A program made the translations under genes and the position numbers. A model generated the notes under the pieces. That model did no database searches. It was given only the letters and a program-made list of their open reading frames with translations, and had not been told where the DNA came from. Below, one piece after another: positions 1,478-14,495 of a stretch of DNA of 36,461 nucleotides. The stretch lies in contig CAJCBL010000339.1 of NCBI GenBank assembly GCA_903960515.1, forward strand, positions 1 through 36,461, read 5' to 3'. This stretch comes from an uncultured Verrucomicrobiota bacterium. GTDB taxonomy: Bacteria; Verrucomicrobiota; Verrucomicrobiia; Opitutales; Opitutaceae. Positions within the stretch are counted from its first letter, which is position 1. Every line of letters starts with the position of its first letter.

Positions 1478-3430
1478 TTACGGCGGGGTAGCCGAGTTCA
1501 CTGGCAATCCCAGCCGGGCAGTTACACGGCGATAGACCGACTCCGGGTCGAGGCCGTGGGCGGCGCGCAGAATCTCCACGCTGCTGCCGTGCTCTACGAA
1601 ATCGTCGGGCCAGGCAATGCGTACCACCGGGGTGGCGACGGCGGCGTCGGCAAGAGTCTCCAGTACGGCGCTACCAAAGCCGCCAGCTGCGACATTGTCC
1701 TCCATCGTCACGAGCAGGCGGCTGGCGCGGGCGTGGGAGAGCAGGAGCTCGCGGTCGAGGGGTTTCACCCAGCGGGCGTTGACCACGGCAGCCTGCACTC
1801 CGTGCTCGCGCTGGAGGCGGTCGGCGAGTGCGAGTGCGTCCTGCACCCATGGGCCCAGTGCCCAGAGGGCGAGGTCGGAGCCTTCGCGAAGCACCTCGGC
1901 CTTGCCTACGGGCAGCACGGTGGGCACGGGCTTGGGCTGCACCCCGGGGCCGGCGCCGCGAGGGTAGCGCAGGAAGGTGGGCAGCGGGTGCTGGAGGGCG
2001 GTGTGCAGCAGGTCGGCCAGTTCGTCCTCGTCCTTTGGTTGCGCGATGGCGGCGTAGGGCACGTTGCGCAGGTACGAGAGGTCGAAGAGCCCGTGGTGGG
2101 TGGGGCCGTCGTTGGGCGAGAGGCCGGCGCGGTCGAGGCAGAACACCACGGGCAATTTCTGGAGACAGACGTCGTGGACGATCTGGTCGTAGGCGCGCTG
2201 CAGGAAGGTGGAGTAGATCGCCACTACGGGCTTGAGGCCCTGGGCTGCGAGCCCGGCGGCGAAGAGCGCGGCGTGTTCCTCGGCGATGCCCACATCGAAG
2301 AACTGCCGGGGCAGTTCCTTGGCGAGTATCCCGAGTCCGGTGCCGCCGGGCATTGCCCCGGTGATACCCACAACGCGGTTGTCCAGCTGGGCCTCACGCA
2401 GGAGAGCGCGGCCGAAGATGTCCTGATACGCTGGTTTCGCGCCCGGGGCGGTGTGGCCGTTGCCCGTGGCGATATCGAAGGGGCTGGTGCCGTGGAAACG
2501 CTCCGCCTGCTCGATGGCGGCCTCGTAGCCCTTGCCCTTCTTGGTGAGCACGTGCACGACCACCGGGCAGTCGGCCTGCTTGGCGAACTCGAGGTTCTTG
2601 ATCAGCAGCGGAAGGTCGTGGCCGTCGATCGGGCCGAGGTAGCGCAGGCCGTATTTCTCGAAGAGCGACGACTCGACAAAGAAATCCTTGGTCTCGCGCT
2701 TCCACTTCATCCAGATCTGGTGCAGCCGCTCGCCGCGCGGGGTGCTGCGGAAGAACTCCTCGATGTCGTGGTAGATTCGGTTGTAGGTGGCGCTGGTGGA
2801 GAGCTCGTTGAGGTATTTGGAAAGCGCACCCACGTTGCGGGCGATGGACCACTCGTTGTCGTTGAGGACCACTACGAGGCGCTTGGTCGAATGGGCGATG
2901 TTGTTGAGCGCCTCCATCGAGATGCCGCAGGTGAAGGCGGCGTCGCCGCAGAGGGCTACGACGTGCTCGCTGGTGCCGAGCAGATCGCGGGCGGTGGCCA
3001 GGCCCAGGGCGGCGGAAAGGGCGGTGCCGGCGTGACCGGCCCCGAAGCTGTCGTGCGGGCTCTCGGCGCGATTAAGGAAGCCGGAGAGGCCGCCTGTCTT
3101 GCGGATGAGGCGGAAGCCCTCGCCTCCTCGCCCGGTGAGCAGTTTGTGGACATAACCCTGGTGGGCCACGTCGAAGACAAACTTGTCGTGCGGTGTGTCG
3201 AAAACCCGGTGCAGCGCGATTGTGAGTTCAACTACGCCGAGGTTCGGACCTAGGTGGCCGCCGTTGCGGGCGGTGACGGCGATGAGCTCGTCGCGAATTT
3301 CCTGAGCCAGCAGCGGCAACTGGTCGACAGGGAGAGCCTTGACGTCGGCCGGGCCGTGCACCCCGGGGAGAAGCGGTGCGCTCCGGGGGGCTGGGACCGG
3401 TTTCCCGGCGGGAGAGGGTGCGGGGATCAT
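1478..3430 (-). CDS. dxs: 1-deoxy-D-xylulose-5-phosphate synthase
   Basis: This is the thiamine-diphosphate enzyme that condenses pyruvate with glyceraldehyde 3-phosphate, the entry step of the MEP isoprenoid pathway and a source of thiamine and pyridoxal precursors. The 650-residue length is normal. Visible landmarks are GGHLGPNLGVVELTIALH near the N-terminus, DVAHQGYVHKLLTGR, the ThDP/metal segment GDAAFTCG (about residue 161) with NDNEWSIARNVGALS, and the pyrimidine-domain FDVGIAEEHAALFAAGLA with its catalytic Glu. GDGA and DVGHQ of well-studied enzymes read GDAA and DVAHQ here. The start at 3430 lies 10 bp after the xseB stop; the frame is open further upstream, but that part only shadows xseB. 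It is probably co-transcribed with xseB. Confidence 0.95.
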   Translation of the reverse strand: MIPAPSPAGKPVPAPRSAPLLPGVHGPADVKALPVDQLPLLAQEIRDELIAVTARNGGHLGPNLGVVELTIALHRVFDTPHDKFVFDVAHQGYVHKLLTGRGGEGFRLIRKTGGLSGFLNRAESPHDSFGAGHAGTALSAALGLATARDLLGTSEHVVALCGDAAFTCGISMEALNNIAHSTKRLVVVLNDNEWSIARNVGALSKYLNELSTSATYNRIYHDIEEFFRSTPRGERLHQIWMKWKRETKDFFVESSLFEKYGLRYLGPIDGHDLPLLIKNLEFAKQADCPVVVHVLTKKGKGYEAAIEQAERFHGTSPFDIATGNGHTAPGAKPAYQDIFGRALLREAQLDNRVVGITGAMPGGTGLGILAKELPRQFFDVGIAEEHAALFAAGLAAQGLKPVVAIYSTFLQRAYDQIVHDVCLQKLPVVFCLDRAGLSPNDGPTHHGLFDLSYLRNVPYAAIAQPKDEDELADLLHTALQHPLPTFLRYPRGAGPGVQPKPVPTVLPVGKAEVLREGSDLALWALGPWVQDALALADRLQREHGVQAAVVNARWVKPLDRELLLSHARASRLLVTMEDNVAAGGFGSAVLETLADAAVATPVVRIAWPDDFVEHGSSVEILRAAHGLDPESVYRRVTARLGLPVNSATPP

Positions 3431-3440
3431 CGGCGGGCGA

Positions 3441-3692
3441 TCAGTTGCCCGCACGTTCGGGGGCGAACGGCTCCAGTGCGGCGGTGTCGCGCACTTTTTT
3501 GAGTTGGTCGATCTTGAGCTCGGCGTCCTTGAGCCGGGCCTCGCAAACTTTGAGCAACTTGGTGCCCTCCTCGTAGTGGATGAGCAACGCGGCAAGCGGC
3601 ACCTCGCCCTGCTCCATCGACTCGACGATGGCTTCGAGACGGTTGAGTGCGTCCTCGAAACTGGGCGGGCTGGGCTGTTTGGTCGCGGGCAT
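3441..3692 (-). CDS. xseB: Exodeoxyribonuclease VII small subunit
   Basis: XseB is the small, non-catalytic subunit that binds in several copies to XseA to make exonuclease VII, which degrades single-stranded DNA from both ends. The 83-residue product has the family core SFEDALNRLEAIVESMEQGE followed by PLAALLIHYEEGTKLLKVCE, a helical hairpin expected to form a coiled coil. The C-terminus is charged and variable. The gene precedes dxs by 10 bp, a pairing seen in many bacteria, where xseB, ispA and dxs are neighbours; no ispA is present here. xseA is not in the window. Confidence 0.92.
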   Translation of the reverse strand: MPATKQPSPPSFEDALNRLEAIVESMEQGEVPLAALLIHYEEGTKLLKVCEARLKDAELKIDQLKKVRDTAALEPFAPERAGN

Positions 3693-3794
3693 TGCGAGCG
3701 CACGATTGGGCGGCGTCGCCGGCTTTTCAACCTAGTTTGCGCGAGGGGAGCGATGCGGCCGGTCCCCGTCGGTAGCGCCGGCTATTGCTGGGCT

Positions 3795-5309
3795 TTACGG
3801 TGCGGGCCCACTTGGGACCGGCGCAGTGGCCGCATCGAGTGCGTGGGCCTTTTTGACAAGGCCCACGAATTCCTTGCGGTAGCCTCCCTCGTCGGCGCCC
3901 ATCCCGGATACGGCCAGCTTCTCGACCATGTCCCAGGACATGCCGCCCTTGAAAGGGCTGCCCTGCAGGAGCATCCCGAAACCGGCGACAGCGGCGGCGA
4001 ACTGGAAGTCGGGGTCGGTGGCCTTCTCGTCGTCGTAGCGGCCGGCGTGCAGCGGCACGATGGCCGCCTGTGGGACCTCGCTGCCCGGTGTGTGGTAGCG
4101 GAGTTTCACGGTGAGCCACTCGTTGGTGGCGGCTGCGGAGCCGGCTGCTGGATGTTGAGACTTTGGGGATGCTACGGTGGCGGGCAGCGCGGCCTTTGTT
4201 CCTGCGGGGATGATCTCGTAGAGCGCGGTAACTGCGTGGCTAGCACCGATGGCGCGCCCGTCGCCGGGTTGCGCGAAGTCGTCGCCCTTGAGCAGGCGGT
4301 TTTCGTAACCGATGAGGCGGTACGCCAGCACCTTCGCCGGGTTGAACTCCACCTGGACGCGCACGTCGCTGGCGATGGTCTGGATGGCGGCGCCGGCCTG
4401 CTCGGTGAGCAACTGGCGCGCCTCGGCCTGGGCCAGCGGAGTGGGGTGGAGTAGTGGCCGGGTTACTGCACCCGGCTCCTGAGGGGATTCCGCCCCTGAG
4501 GATGTCGCCGGTGTTGGGTGCTCGCGGCCCTGGAGTGCGATGCGCACCAGTTTGTGCTCGGCCGCCCAGGGGGCCGGTCGCAGGTCTGCGGAGATGGAGA
4601 AGGGCTCGGCGCCGGCCGGCTGCGGGTAGCGGTAGCGGAAGGCGTTCACCAGTTCCTCGATGCGTACCAGGCCGGAGGGCGGGAGTTCGCCCGCTTCGAG
4701 GAACCGGCGCACGTCGGTGTAGGCGGTGGTTTCCACCTCAAGCGCGAAGGTCGAGAGCGGGTTCTGCTGCGCTGTGAGGAAATAGTTGGGCTGGATCGAG
4801 CTGAGCGCACCGGCGTTGAATCCGGGGCCGGGGGTGGGGATGGCGGCGCGCTCGCTGGGCGCGGCGGCGGAGGTGGCCGTGGCCGCAGGCTCGCCGGGGG
4901 CGAGTTGGGAGAATTGGTTGGCGGTGACAACGCGGTCGTGGCGCGCGCGCTCGGCGGAGCGGAAGGCGGTGTCGAGATCCCGGTTATGAGCGGGCAGATA
5001 GACACCCCAGAAGAAGAGAGCGAAGCAGGCGGATACGCCCAGCGGCACCCAGATGGTCCACTGCTCGGCGAAGAGGCGGCGCAGCCAGTGGCGGCGGGCA
5101 GCGGAGGGCAACACGGTGGCCCGAGCCGGCAGGGGTTCCTGAGCGAGTGCTTCGTCGAGTACTGCCATTGTGAGGCGGATATCGTCGACGCTGGCCCGTG
5201 CGGCGGGATCGCTGCGTAGAAGGTTTTCGAACTCGGCGCGCTCGGCGGCGGGCAGCTCGTCGAGTGCGTAGGCGGTGAGCCTTGGGTCGTTTGGGTCGAT
5301 CATGGGCAT
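3795..5309 (-). CDS. YfbK-like membrane protein with anti-sigma-like N-terminus, lacking the VWA domain
   Basis: The 504-residue product follows an ECF sigma gene by 23 bp. Residues 1-60 (DPRLTAYALDELPAAERAEF) resemble the N-terminal region of anti-sigma factors; a membrane segment, IWVPLGVSACFALFFWGVYL, lies near 85-106. A YfbK-type N-terminal domain (STFALEVETTAYTDVRRFLE, VRIEELVNAFRYRYP) covers about 185-260. The C-terminal half (DVRVQVEFNPAKVLAYRLIG, YENRLL, HAVTALYEIIP) matches the DUF3520 domain. In family members a von Willebrand A domain of roughly 200 residues with a DxSxS metal site lies between these two parts; here only about 30 Pro/Ala-rich residues remain, in frame. A GGAGGA site 7 bp upstream fixes the start. 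Function is unknown; a role in controlling the sigma factor is inferred. Confidence 0.85.
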   Translation of the reverse strand: MPMIDPNDPRLTAYALDELPAAERAEFENLLRSDPAARASVDDIRLTMAVLDEALAQEPLPARATVLPSAARRHWLRRLFAEQWTIWVPLGVSACFALFFWGVYLPAHNRDLDTAFRSAERARHDRVVTANQFSQLAPGEPAATATSAAAPSERAAIPTPGPGFNAGALSSIQPNYFLTAQQNPLSTFALEVETTAYTDVRRFLEAGELPPSGLVRIEELVNAFRYRYPQPAGAEPFSISADLRPAPWAAEHKLVRIALQGREHPTPATSSGAESPQEPGAVTRPLLHPTPLAQAEARQLLTEQAGAAIQTIASDVRVQVEFNPAKVLAYRLIGYENRLLKGDDFAQPGDGRAIGASHAVTALYEIIPAGTKAALPATVASPKSQHPAAGSAAATNEWLTVKLRYHTPGSEVPQAAIVPLHAGRYDDEKATDPDFQFAAAVAGFGMLLQGSPFKGGMSWDMVEKLAVSGMGADEGGYRKEFVGLVKKAHALDAATAPVPSGPAP

Positions 5310-5332: not shown

Positions 5333-5854
5333 CTAGGCGGCGCTGGGCCGGGTGAGTTCGCGGCGCAGCGCGGCGAGGGCGGTATGGAGCAGGAAACCGA
5401 CGTTGCCCACGGAGAGGCGGGTGATGGCGGCGATCTCCTTGTAACTGAAACCCTCCTGGAATTTCAACCGCACTACCTCCTGCTGGTTGGGCGGCAGGAG
5501 GTCGAGTTGGGCGAGCACCATGCGCCACGATTCGAGGTGCTCGGTCTGGGCGGCCGGTGTTGGATCGGCGGAGACGAGGCGCTCGGCTTGCCCCTCGGCG
5601 AAGCGGCTCATGCGGCCCTCCTTGCGGAGCACGTCGAGGGCGGCGCGACGCGCGACGGTGAAGAGCCATTCCGCGGCGTGCCCGTCCACCGCGGATACGG
5701 GTTGGCGGCAGAGTTTGACGAAGGTGTCCTGCACGATGTCGCGGGCGCGGTCGGCATCGCCGAGCAGGTGGGCGGCGTAGCGCAGCAACGGGCGTTCGTG
5801 GTCGCGCAGGGCGGAGCGCACAAAGGCATCGTGGTCATCGGAGTGCGGGCTCAT
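5333..5854 (-). CDS. ECF-type RNA polymerase sigma factor
   Basis: The 173-residue protein has the two-domain layout of extracytoplasmic-function sigma factors. Sigma region 2 covers about residues 13-80: LLRYAAHLLGDADRARDIVQ, then DTFVKLCRQ and AAEWLFTVARRAALDVLRKE. Region 4 covers about 115-165: LDLLPPNQQEVVRLKFQEGF, then SYKEIAAITRLSVGNVGFLL, the helix-turn-helix that binds the -35 element. It directs RNA polymerase to a small regulon, usually under control of a cognate anti-sigma factor. The next gene has an anti-sigma-like N-terminus and one membrane helix, so the two probably form a regulatory pair. The target promoter motif is not evident from this window. Confidence 0.93.
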   Translation of the reverse strand: MSPHSDDHDAFVRSALRDHERPLLRYAAHLLGDADRARDIVQDTFVKLCRQPVSAVDGHAAEWLFTVARRAALDVLRKEGRMSRFAEGQAERLVSADPTPAAQTEHLESWRMVLAQLDLLPPNQQEVVRLKFQEGFSYKEIAAITRLSVGNVGFLLHTALAALRRELTRPSAA

Positions 5855-6062
5855 GCCGGGTTGGAGGTTGGAGGAGACGGGTGCCAGGCGGCGGTGCTGC
5901 AGAGGAAACGCGCGAGGGACGGAGTTCTTAGGAAGAATTCATGCGGCGGCGACGAAAAGGTGAGGAGCGGCAGGGCGTGCCCTCCGTTGGGACGAGGTAT
6001 GCCAGTGATTCCACGGGGTCGGGGCGTCCGAAACCGGCGCTTTCTTTTCCGCAGGCCACCGC

Positions 6063-6074: not shown

Positions 6075-6302
6075 ATGAGCACGCTTCTCTCCCGAATCAC
6101 AGTCGAGCCCGGAAAATGTGGCGGACGCCCGTGTATTCGAGGCTACCGGTTGCGGGTGAAGGACGTGCTTGAACTCTTGGCACACGATGCAACCTGGGAC
6201 GAGATTTTGGCGGACTATCCATTCCTAGAGGCTGATGATATTCGCGCATGCTTGGAGTTTGCCGCCTCCCAAAATGACCGCGTGATCTTGCGCGCGTCGT
6301 GA
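6075..6302 (+). CDS. DUF433 family antitoxin
   Basis: The 75-residue protein carries the DUF433 core: RITVEPGKCGGRPCIRGYRL, then VKDVLELLAHDATWDEILAD and YPFLEADDIRACLEFA. The fold is a small winged-helix/HTH-like module; members are antitoxins of type II systems that pair with PIN-like DUF5615 toxins. The downstream toxin gene overlaps it by 4 bases (GTGA), so the two are translationally coupled. It should neutralise the toxin and probably represses its own promoter, but no operator repeat is obvious upstream. The pair sits alone on the plus strand between minus-strand operons, consistent with independent acquisition. Confidence 0.88.
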   Translation: MSTLLSRITVEPGKCGGRPCIRGYRLRVKDVLELLAHDATWDEILADYPFLEADDIRACLEFAASQNDRVILRAS

Positions 6303-6631
6303 CCCGATTCCTCGTTGATAACCAGTTGCCGGTGACCCTAGCCCGTTGGCTCTGCGCACATGGGCATATTGCCGAGCATGCGCTGGAGTTGAATTTGGCT
6401 CAGGCCGCCGACCGGCTTCTCTGGCACTATGCGGCAGAGCATGATGCGGTGATCGTTACGAAAGACGAAGACTTCGCGCAGATGGTGACGCTCCGTCCCG
6501 AACCCGTTCGCGTTGTCTGGCTACGCATCGGCAACTGTCGCACGGCCGCTCTGCTTGCTGTGTTTGAATCCGCGCTCCCTGCGATCACCGAGCAACTCGC
6601 CCACGGCATCCGCTTGATCGAGGTTCACTGA
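6299..6631 (+). CDS. DUF5615 PIN-like toxin
   Basis: The 110-residue protein starts at a GTG that overlaps the antitoxin stop. Family landmarks are FLVDNQLPVTLARWLCAHGH at the N-terminus, whose Asp is one acidic metal ligand, and AAEHDAVIVTKDEDFAQM in the middle with the TKDxDF motif. The C-terminal part, VRVVWLRIGNCRTAAL, matches the family's V.WLR.GN. segment. DUF5615 proteins are PIN-like and are predicted RNases; the acidic residues expected for metal binding are present, so it is probably intact. The cleavage target is unknown. Confidence 0.88.
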   Translation: MTRFLVDNQLPVTLARWLCAHGHIAEHALELNLAQAADRLLWHYAAEHDAVIVTKDEDFAQMVTLRPEPVRVVWLRIGNCRTAALLAVFESALPAITEQLAHGIRLIEVH

Positions 6632-12470: not shown

Positions 12471-13205
12471 ATGTCAGGTCCACTTTCCTCCTCCGTGTTC
12501 CTCGCCGCCAACGTCAACATCATCGAGATCTTCGTTGGCACCGACAGCGTCGGCCAGGCTATTACCTGCCTGCTCGGGCTGTTTAGCGTCTTTGCCTGGT
12601 CGGTAATGATCGGAAAATACTTCGAGCTTAAGAAGCTTAAGCGCTTCAACGAGGACTTTGAATACCGCCTGCGCGAGGAGCGCCGCCTCTTCGATCTGCC
12701 TGCGCTCTTCCGCGAGAAGCGCACCATCCCCTACGGCGACCTGTTTGCCGATGCGATGGAGGCCTACGCCCGCGCCGCGCAGATCGGGCAGGAGAGGGGC
12801 GAGCAGAACATCCGCTCGCGTATCGAACACGCCGAGAACGCCCTGCAGCGCGCGCTTGGGCGCCAGGTGCTGCGCTACGAGACCAGCATGATCTTCCTCG
12901 CCTCGATCGTATCCGGAGCCCCGTTCCTCGGGCTGCTCGGCACGGTGTGGGGCGTGATGGTGGCGTTCAGCTCGGTGGCCACGGCGCAGTCGGCCTCGAT
13001 CCAGACCCTGGCCCCCGGTGTATCGGCGGCGTTGATCACCACGATCGCCGGCCTGATCGTCGCCATCCCCTCGGTGTTCGGCTACAACTTCCTGCTCAAC
13101 CAGGTGAAGGTGCTCATCACCGAGCTGGAGAACTACGCCAGCAGTCTCGCCGACCGCATCGAGCTCGAGACCGCCGCGAGCACCACTCCGACCAATCAGG
13201 ACTGA
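12471..13205 (+). CDS. tolQ: TolQ/ExbB/MotA-family proton channel
   Basis: This inner-membrane protein forms, with TolR/ExbD, a proton-driven motor that energises envelope processes. The 244 residues show three membrane segments: AITCLLGLFSVFAWSVMIGK near 30-50, FLASIVSGAPFLGLLGTVWG near 142-162 and LAPGVSAALITTIAGLIVAI near 180-200, with a large cytoplasmic loop between the first two. GLLGTVWGVMVAF and SAALITTIAGLIVAIPS are the classic MotA/TolQ/ExbB signatures. TolR follows by 8 bp and a TonB/TolA-like gene after that. TolQ is preferred to ExbB from the operon order and length, but the two cannot be separated firmly. Confidence 0.9.
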   Translation: MSGPLSSSVFLAANVNIIEIFVGTDSVGQAITCLLGLFSVFAWSVMIGKYFELKKLKRFNEDFEYRLREERRLFDLPALFREKRTIPYGDLFADAMEAYARAAQIGQERGEQNIRSRIEHAENALQRALGRQVLRYETSMIFLASIVSGAPFLGLLGTVWGVMVAFSSVATAQSASIQTLAPGVSAALITTIAGLIVAIPSVFGYNFLLNQVKVLITELENYASSLADRIELETAASTTPTNQD

Positions 13206-13213
13206 AGCTGGCC

Positions 13214-13636
13214 ATGGCACGCACCTTCAAACGTCAGCGCGGTCTGCATCCGGTGGCGGAGCTCAACATCACCAACATGGTCGATCTGGGTTTCACTCTG
13301 CTGATCATCTTCATGATCGCCACGCCGCTGATACAGCAGAACCAGTCGATTCCCCTCGATCTACCGGTGGTTCATGGCACTTCACAGCAGAAGAAGCCGG
13401 AGGAGGCCCAGCTCGTCACTGTTGATCGCAACGGCAACTACTACTGGAGCGGGCGCCGCACCAACCTCGCCCAGATGCGGGTAAACTTGGCGGCGCTGGC
13501 GGAGATGCCCAAGCCGCCCGTGATCCGGATCGAAGCCGATTTCACCCTTCAGTATCAGCAGGTGGTCAGTGTGCTCGACGAGGTGAAGCGGGTAGGCCTG
13601 AGCCGTATCAGCCTGGATACCCAGGTGTCGAAATAG
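13214..13636 (+). CDS. tolR: TolR/ExbD-family transport protein
   Basis: The 140-residue partner of the upstream channel has a short cytoplasmic N-terminus, one membrane helix (NMVDLGFTLLIIFMIATPLI) with the conserved proton-carrying Asp at about residue 24, and a periplasmic domain ending VLDEVKRVGLSRISLDTQ. In TolR/ExbD proteins this Asp is essential for coupling proton flow to force. The start at 13214 gives the expected positively charged leader MARTFKRQ; the frame is open upstream only as a shadow of tolQ. Confidence 0.9.
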   Translation: MARTFKRQRGLHPVAELNITNMVDLGFTLLIIFMIATPLIQQNQSIPLDLPVVHGTSQQKKPEEAQLVTVDRNGNYYWSGRRTNLAQMRVNLAALAEMPKPPVIRIEADFTLQYQQVVSVLDEVKRVGLSRISLDTQVSK

Positions 13637-13664
13637 GCTTCCCCGGCCTAGCTTTCCGCCATCC

Positions 13665-14495
13665 ATGCGAGCCAGTTCACCAGGCGCCATAGCCCTCTCG
13701 GCCACCTTCCATGCCGCAGCCATCGCTGTGGTCGTGGCAACGTCGATGTGGGTGCAGAAGGCGACGGAGATCAACCCGAAGGTCTTCGACCTCGTGAACG
13801 CCGAGGACATTGAGATCGGCGACCATTTCGAGATGCCGGGGGCGATTTCGAAGAATCCCGGAGTGAAGGACCCCGCCGTGAAATTCAAGAAGTCGAAAGT
13901 GAAGCCGGTGAAGATTCCGTCAGCGCAGGAGATCGCAGCGGCCGAGGCCAAGGAGGAGAAGGAGGCGGCCAAGGAGGCGGCGAAAGCCGCAAAGGATAGG
14001 CCGTCGAAAAACGCGCCGGCTCTCAAAAACAAGGCGACCAGCTATGCCGATTTCCAAAAGCAGAATTCCAAACAGCTCGCCAGCAACCAGAAGGTTCGCA
14101 GCGGCGGGGCGAAGGGATCGTCAGCCCCCGGTATCGATTCCAAGGGGATAGTGGACGATCTCATGAAGTCGGCCGCCGGGCCCCGCGGCGACGGCGGCGG
14201 CACGGGCGGTACCAAGGCCATGATCGTAGCGCTCGATGCCTACTTCGGCCGGTTGATAAGTGCGCTGCGCGCGGCCCATGAGATGCCCGATTCGGTGAAC
14301 GACCTGCTTGTCGCCAAAGTTTCCTTCTATCTGGCTTCCGACGGGTCGATCTCGGCGGTGGTGATCACCAAGTCGTCCGGGGATGCCGACTATGACCAGT
14401 CGGTGATCGAGGCCTTCCACAAGGTACGCTCCATCGGGGCGGTGCCCGGGGCGAAGAGCGGCAAGTACGAGATCAACTTCAAGATGACGGAGTAG
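13665..14495 (+). CDS. TonB/TolA-like energy transducer
   Basis: The 276-residue product has the three-part design of TolA and TonB. An N-terminal membrane anchor (IALSATFHAAAIAVVVATSM, residues 9-28) is followed by a long, charged Lys/Ala/Glu-rich helical region (about 85-115, EAKEEKEAAKEAAKAAKDR). The C-terminal periplasmic domain (about 185-276: ALDAYFGRLISALRAAHEMP, VAKVSFYLASDGSISAVVIT, YDQSVIEAFHKV) is of TonB/TolA C-terminal type. It should span the periplasm and pass force from TolQR to outer-membrane partners. The KEA-rich helix favours TolA; tolB and pal, usual followers, are absent, so a specific symbol is withheld. A heptamer repeat begins 6 bp after its stop. Confidence 0.82.
   Translation: MRASSPGAIALSATFHAAAIAVVVATSMWVQKATEINPKVFDLVNAEDIEIGDHFEMPGAISKNPGVKDPAVKFKKSKVKPVKIPSAQEIAAAEAKEEKEAAKEAAKAAKDRPSKNAPALKNKATSYADFQKQNSKQLASNQKVRSGGAKGSSAPGIDSKGIVDDLMKSAAGPRGDGGGTGGTKAMIVALDAYFGRLISALRAAHEMPDSVNDLLVAKVSFYLASDGSISAVVITKSSGDADYDQSVIEAFHKVRSIGAVPGAKSGKYEINFKMTE

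Follow-up and report, generated by a model that had tools for sequence, protein, structure and literature searches.

YfbK proteins, of which E. coli YfbK is an example, are widespread and consist of the N-terminal family PF12450, a von Willebrand factor A (VWA) domain and the C-terminal family PF12034; no characterisation of these proteins was found in the literature that we searched. ArnB, a phosphorylation-controlled archaeal regulator, has an eight-stranded beta-sandwich that is split by a VWA domain and has been likened to Sec23/24, and an ArnB-like arrangement has been predicted for E. coli YfbK (PMC12852372); the accessible part of that paper does not mention a link to sigma factors. A third group of described proteins, the transmembrane anti-sigma factors RslA and RskA, combines an N-terminal anti-sigma domain with one transmembrane segment and is encoded next to an ECF sigma factor. 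Finally, the accessible part of a further paper describes IutY-type fusions of sigma and anti-sigma factor in one protein (ECF243; PMC8999054). A YfbK-type or VWA-less anti-sigma factor was not described in the literature searched, and a mention in the re-classification of ECF sigma factors (10.1093/nar/gkaa1229) is possible.

The protein considered here shares both flanking families with YfbK, in the same order, and differs from it in that it has no VWA domain and is fused to a predicted anti-sigma domain and a transmembrane segment. Among the best 80 loci of our genome-wide scan, many YfbK proteins start, as judged by eye, with a signal-peptide-like sequence, unlike the protein studied. With ArnB and the Sec23/Sec24 core it has a beta-sandwich and a helical domain in common, whereas ArnB contains a VWA domain. 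With RslA and RskA it shares one transmembrane segment and the adjacent ECF sigma gene. Its N-terminal domain resembles that of RslA in a structural comparison and scores below cut-off against both RskA_N and the NCBIfam anti-sigma family, and its predicted periplasmic part is a YfbK/Sec23-core module. Judged by the accessible part of the paper, IutY-type proteins represent a different system; the sigma and anti-sigma genes of the window are unfused. To what an earlier note on this DNA had claimed, our analysis adds that the loss of the VWA domain is recurrent, that this domain is predicted to lie within one beta-sandwich, and that a promoter-like motif with a candidate regulon is attached to the gene pair.

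Architecture of the gene pair and fold of the YfbK module

The window, that is the whole stretch of 36,461 nucleotides analysed here (contig CAJCBL010000339.1 of assembly GCA_903960515.1, an uncultured member of the Opitutaceae), carries at 3795..5309 on the minus strand a gene for a VWA-less, YfbK-type candidate anti-sigma factor of 504 amino acids, identified by translation, Pfam and NCBIfam NF052375. The earlier note had placed the gene at these positions and had claimed that the VWA domain was lost while the frame stayed intact, and on both points it was correct. The translated frame runs from an ATG at 5309 to 3795 with no internal stop; PF12450 (vWF_A, the YfbK N-terminal family) matches residues 170-256 with 98.6 bits and PF12034 (YfbK_C) matches residues 308-490 with 183.4 bits, against a Pfam cut-off of 25 in each case, and no VWA family of Pfam matched the protein up to E = 1. 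In place of a VWA core with its DxSxS metal site, a low-complexity linker of 30 residues without DxSxS, EHPTPATSSGAESPQEPGAVTRPLLHPTPL, lies between residue 262 and residue 293 (residues 263-292, 4434..4523 on the minus strand, assigned by comparison with relatives and low pLDDT); the corresponding stretch of VWA-bearing relatives spans about 172 residues and mostly contains DVSGS. On its sequence, the protein is best described as a derived VWA-less relative of YfbK rather than a full YfbK.

All further segments of the protein are likewise encoded on the minus strand. Residues 1-60 (5130..5309) constitute the predicted cytoplasmic anti-sigma domain, an assignment based on a structural match to RslA; RskA_N scored 15 bits against the N-terminus, below its Pfam cut-off of 27, and NCBIfam NF052375 'antisigma' matched the protein with E 7e-12 but reached only 45.8 of the 100 bits that its cut-off demands. 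The hydrophobic stretch at residues 84-105 (4995..5060), WTIWVPLGVSACFALFFWGVYL, with RR residues ahead of it, was judged from the sequence by eye to be a single transmembrane segment following the anti-sigma domain, and a helix predicted by AlphaFold at residues 84-132 covers it. The YfbK N-terminal domain occupies residues 170-262 (4524..4802), and its last part supplies strands one and two of the beta-sandwich according to PF12450 and the model; residues 293-495 (3825..4433) hold a retained helix, the remaining beta-sandwich and the C-terminal helical domain (YfbK_C), as assigned from PF12034 and a match to ArnB.

The neighbouring gene at 5333..5854 on the minus strand encodes a protein of 173 amino acids that matches Sigma70_r2 (45.9 bits) and Sigma70_r4_2 (48.8 bits) above the Pfam cut-offs, which bears out the earlier claim of an ECF sigma factor next door. 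The stop codon of the sigma gene and the start codon of the anti-sigma gene are 23 nt apart on the same strand, and this adjacency is kept in congeners and relatives. On the other side of the anti-sigma gene, downstream of it, lies a gene for 1-deoxy-D-xylulose-5-phosphate synthase (1478-3730, minus strand), and upstream of the sigma gene, on the opposite strand, a DUF5615 (PIN-like) gene (6299-6631, plus strand, 92.8 bits).

AlphaFold models were obtained for the window protein (mean pLDDT 79) and for a VWA-bearing relative, L226 (76.8). In the window model, strands are predicted at residues 237-246 and 249-261, in a block with pLDDT 87-96, and the linker falls below 50 at residues 270-289. 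The best match of this model was ArnB (8s05_A; Z 8.5, 166 residues aligned, rmsd 4.5), with a Z only just above the level that the tool calls common, so that we weigh it alongside the protein's homology to VWA-bearing family members; Foldseek returned 8s05_B with E 3.6e-4, and Sec23/24 entries reached about Z 5. The aligned range, residues 235-500 of the window model against residues 2-362 of 8s05_A, suggests that the alignment skips over the VWA domain of ArnB. A beta-sandwich with a C-terminal helical domain, as in ArnB and the Sec23-24 core, was found in the window model, and a VWA domain that splits the sandwich is absent from the window protein and present in L226, the model of which matched 8s05_A with Z 19.5 and inter-alpha-inhibitor heavy chain 1 with Z 20.7. 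Taken together with the published description of ArnB, these fold matches lead us to view the VWA domain as an insert, the removal of which would rejoin two neighbouring strands of one sandwich. The models thereby suggest an explanation for why its loss was tolerated, and if they hold, the protein would offer a clear case of an inserted domain that was removed without harm to the host fold. For residues 1-60 the match was RslA (3hug_F), with 56 residues aligned at an rmsd of 3.3 and 30% identity; its Z of 6.4 is at a level that the tool calls common for helical parts.

Recurrence of VWA loss in the Opitutaceae

Orthologues of the sigma factor were detected in 127 of 252 genomes of the family (E <= 1e-25). 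From 135 loci fetched, we kept the 113 that contained the sigma gene and both YfbK flanks, hereafter N and C (110 from the family and three from order-level relatives); the 22 loci left out lacked sigma, N or C, were cut by a contig end or represented a paralogue, and VWA loss is unscored there. The census also goes without the sigma place of G248, which lies at a contig end, and without G131, which has YfbK hits and no sigma match at the threshold; negative linker lengths in it are an artefact of YfbK_C matching as two pieces. The VWA domain was present in 90 of the 113 loci and absent from 23. All of the latter belong to the 110 Opitutaceae loci, and the three order-level relatives are VWA-bearing throughout. 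The VWA-less loci span 12 genera, nine of which also contain VWA-bearing members, and 22 of the 23 encode the anti-sigma domain, N and C in one frame. In the remaining one (L180, G097:C2:7580-13180) the anti-sigma domain lies in another frame than N and C, owing to a frameshift or an assembly error; the anti-sigma domain of a VWA-bearing locus (L144 in G278) likewise occupies a separate frame.

Parsimony on a concatenated tree of the sigma, anti-sigma, N and C domains required 11 changes of VWA state, nine of them forced by well-supported branches. Removal of five rows that were long or odd, including two VWA-less ones, left nine changes, eight of which were forced, and a tree of the sigma factor only gave 13 changes with six forced. 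A single ancient loss was rejected: a tree that unites the VWA-less rows in one clade had a p-AU of 2.15e-6 in a comparison of two trees from a quick search, in which the groups were set by the VWA states and not chosen from the tree. The VWA domain has thus been lost independently in several lineages of the Opitutaceae. The number of changes alone cannot separate loss from gain; since the order-level relatives are VWA-bearing and 77 of the best 80 loci in the genome-wide scan hold a YfbK frame with a VWA domain, the sequences indicate that loss is the likely direction. As for the other three of these 80 loci, L245 has its VWA domain in a second frame, and the domain is missing from L201 and L202; one of the 77, L206, entered the set through a VWA-less gene adjoining a VWA-bearing one.

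Several loci show further variation. In G137, one frame (L200, G137:C634:5400-7439) retains the opening strand of the VWA domain, including DVSGSM, but lacks the rest of it and continues directly into the beginning of YfbK_C; judged by this sequence it is likely an intermediate of VWA loss, and the locus ends at a contig edge, with no sigma gene seen there. The DxSxS motif of the metal site is degenerate in three VWA-bearing members (L062, L070 and L184 in G044, G058 and G096). In three of the loci left out of the census (L191, L194 and L198), the sigma gene occurs without a detected anti-sigma part. Two loci, L199 (G123:C6:60180-62950) and L084 (G041:C1:1802500-1810000), appear to encode the sigma factor and a VWA-bearing YfbK anti-sigma factor in one ORF of about 930 amino acids, comparable to the IutY-type fusions, and in G123 this fusion directly precedes a VWA-less pair.

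Function of the VWA-less protein and competing explanations

We regard it as probable that the window protein spans the membrane once and works as an anti-sigma factor for the neighbouring ECF sigma factor, and that the VWA domain is a dispensable plug-in. Residues 1-60 would sequester the sigma factor in the cytoplasm, residues 84-105 would cross the membrane, and the periplasmic part would be a Sec23/24-core-like YfbK module made of the beta-sandwich and the helical domain. The ancestor would have carried its VWA domain inserted between two strands of the sandwich. Upon in-frame loss of this domain, in the genus of the window and in several other lineages of the family, a short linker would have taken its place, the sandwich would still close and the anti-sigma unit would stay usable, with periplasmic input then read by the sandwich and the helical domain alone. 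The earlier note had proposed a sigma-control module that no longer needs the VWA part, and the anti-sigma-like N-terminus, the kept sigma linkage and promoter-like motif, and dN/dS values below 1 in the flanks favour this proposal. If it is right, a group of YfbK proteins would act as anti-sigma factors for which a promoter and target genes are predicted, and the repeated clean loss of the VWA domain would amount to a natural deletion series showing which part of the sensor is needed.

Selection on the remaining domains bears on this directly. Within the genus, dN/dS (NG86) was 0.24-0.45 for N, 0.38-0.56 for C and about 0.25 for the sigma factor, and five other VWA-less pairs gave 0.10-0.57 for N and C, most dS values being from NG86 only since YN00 often failed. 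The ratio was below 1 in all eight VWA-less pairs tested; two VWA-bearing pairs had values of 0.05 and 0.25 for N and of 0.17 and 0.28 for C, lower than most of the pairs within the genus. We also compared rates with the nearest VWA-bearing row by path, a partner that is no proven sister, and with rows that are not independent: N was faster in 23/23 VWA-less rows (1.6-17.8 fold) and C in 22/23 (0.7-20.3 fold), with the sigma factor at 0.6-4.7 fold. In the window's own genus the sigma factor was faster too (2.8-3.4 fold, compared with 3.8-4.4 for N and 3.5-3.7 for C), so the acceleration there is not specific to the YfbK part. Relaxed selection, which the earlier note had counted as a sign of a deletion allele, may be reflected in the faster flanks of nearly all rows, and is opposed by the dN/dS values. 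Constraint on the flanks may have loosened or changed, yet by these measures it is not gone.

The faster flanks are also a reason to consider that VWA loss inactivated the sensor, such that the anti-sigma domain alone, as a constitutive inhibitor, is under selection and the periplasmic remnant is drifting. The frame split in G097 would fit this explanation, as would six sigma-linked frames from genera g6 and g44 (L077, L189, L193, L195, L196 and L197), which show the anti-sigma domain only, with no YfbK part detected. We nevertheless consider it unlikely: each of the 23 VWA-less loci encodes N and C in one frame, the only four loci with N and no C are at contig ends, the eight VWA-less pairs keep dN/dS below 1, and the model of the window protein is confident for the YfbK domains.

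A little less likely still is that the missing domain is supplied in trans by a VWA-bearing YfbK paralogue of the same genome. Such a paralogue exists in all three genomes of the genus (240-276 bits, with a profile that includes the paralogue of the window genome), and G123 has the VWA-bearing fusion beside its VWA-less pair. However, a search with the YfbK VWA profile found nothing at E <= 1e-8 in four of the 23 VWA-less genomes (G028, G097, G103 and G202, the last a single-contig genome listed as 100% complete), which rules out supply in trans as a general rule, and gave no match above 106 bits in six more (G006, G017, G138, G155, G257 and G280).

The earlier note had also raised the possibility that the gene is a deletion paralogue of recent origin, with an intact copy located elsewhere in the genome. 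A search of the genome did reveal a full-length VWA-bearing YfbK paralogue on contig C247 (L036, G000:C247:4500-12000), a frame of 898 amino acids with a YfbK-type VWA domain and an ECF sigma gene of its own (35% identical) just upstream; with 36-39% identity over the matched parts it is so distant, and its sigma neighbour so different, that a recent origin from it is ruled out. An artefact of assembly or sequencing, or a recent deletion allele at strain level, is extremely improbable, because, although the window genome is fragmented (379 contigs), the orthologues in two congeners, G001 and G002, are also VWA-less at 54-55% identity and have linkers of 17 and 26 residues that differ from that of the window, which refutes an assembly error, and the same architecture recurs in the single-contig genomes G006 and G202. 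To the earlier note's question of whether close relatives all carry the VWA domain, the answer is mixed: the domain is absent from the window's own genus and mostly present in related genera.

Promoter-like motif and candidate target genes

For the working anti-sigma factor favoured above, candidate targets of the sigma factor can be proposed from a promoter-like motif, CTAAGAACTCCGTCCCTCGCGCGT (CTAAGAA-N14-CGT), located at 5908..5931 on the minus strand, 53 nt upstream of the sigma start codon. This is the only exact match in the window, and any match was obtained in 3 of 100 shuffles. The underlying dyad came out of an unplanned comparison of upstream regions, in which one exact form was common to 40 of the 113 loci; in five shuffled sets, no dyad occurred in more than five loci. 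Upstream of the sigma gene, scores of a motif matrix exceeded the 99% shuffled level in 112 of the 113 loci, with 23/23 VWA-less ones among them, in a test that is partly circular since 81 of these 113 loci had served to build the matrix. The lowest score of a VWA-less locus (15.8) exceeded the highest score of a shuffled region (11.3), and 17 of the 23 VWA-less loci have the exact motif and six a form with one base changed.

In 34 genomes of our choice there were 112 exact matches to the motif, 85 of which were examined. The genes that follow these 85 sites encode the sigma factor (18), TonB (15), ExbD (8), DUF4139 proteins (7) and peptidase S55 (2), whereas none of 30 control sites preceded a gene of these families, the control being 30 of 56 matches to the reversed pattern from the first ten genomes only. 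Eight of the 50 gene-family hits are loci that had supplied the queries, and without them the count is 42/77. An ORF of at least 120 amino acids that starts no more than 45 nt downstream was found at 41/85 motif sites and at 4/30 control sites (p = 0.0009), and one that in addition has a hydrophobic N-terminus at 30/85 and 0/30, respectively (p = 2.5e-5). The bare motif is not enriched, as the reversed pattern was commoner in the first ten genomes (56 matches against 25). Abundance of the motif was for this reason dropped as evidence for a regulon, and the case rests on where the matches fall, namely at start codons and before particular gene families.

Pfam confirmed the gene families for representatives, and 6 of the 20 proteins checked had no Pfam family. 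At five loci inspected, the motif precedes one of the two exbD copies, either the first or the second, in a row of exbB-like, exbD-like, exbD-like and tonB-like genes, the row being judged by eye except for the exbD of L304. In the window's genus, the tonB orthologues of G001 and G002 are preceded by the exact motif and that of the window genome, G000, by a one-base variant, which scored 18.2 compared with a maximum of 10.9 in 900 random genomic windows; the remaining two exact matches of G000 lie ahead of frames to which Pfam assigns no family. The targets recur in VWA-less genomes, for instance exbD in G017, G155 and G202 and tonB in G128, G155 and G280. The position of these matches predicts an autoregulated promoter and an envelope regulon centred on TonB/ExbBD, with the sigma operon itself, tonB/exbD and DUF4139 envelope genes as probable targets that the sigma factor transcribes from CTAAGAA-N14-CGT.

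We tentatively extend this to a pathway in which the ECF sigma factor might tune energy transduction by TonB/ExbBD together with envelope proteins, under a periplasmic, Sec23/24-core-like YfbK sensor whose metal-site VWA domain would be optional and may have been excised independently around ten times (9-13 changes by parsimony) with the switch still intact. If so, the YfbK family would gain an assigned role, and its sensor core would be seen in a form that nature has reduced to the essential part. VWA proteins have been linked to motors of the TolQ/ExbB type, in Verrucomicrobia among others, and the accessible part of that work proposes them as force transducers (PMC12204202). By analogy this proposal would fit TonB/ExbBD targets, and it is not evidence for the window protein. 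The window itself contains MotA_ExbB, ExbD and TonB_2 genes in a row at 12471-14492 on the plus strand, where the exact motif is absent. In the VWA-less genome G202, one motif match (L296, G202:C1:2840255-2840278) lies 9 nt before the gene of a separate, secreted-looking VWA protein (PF25106).
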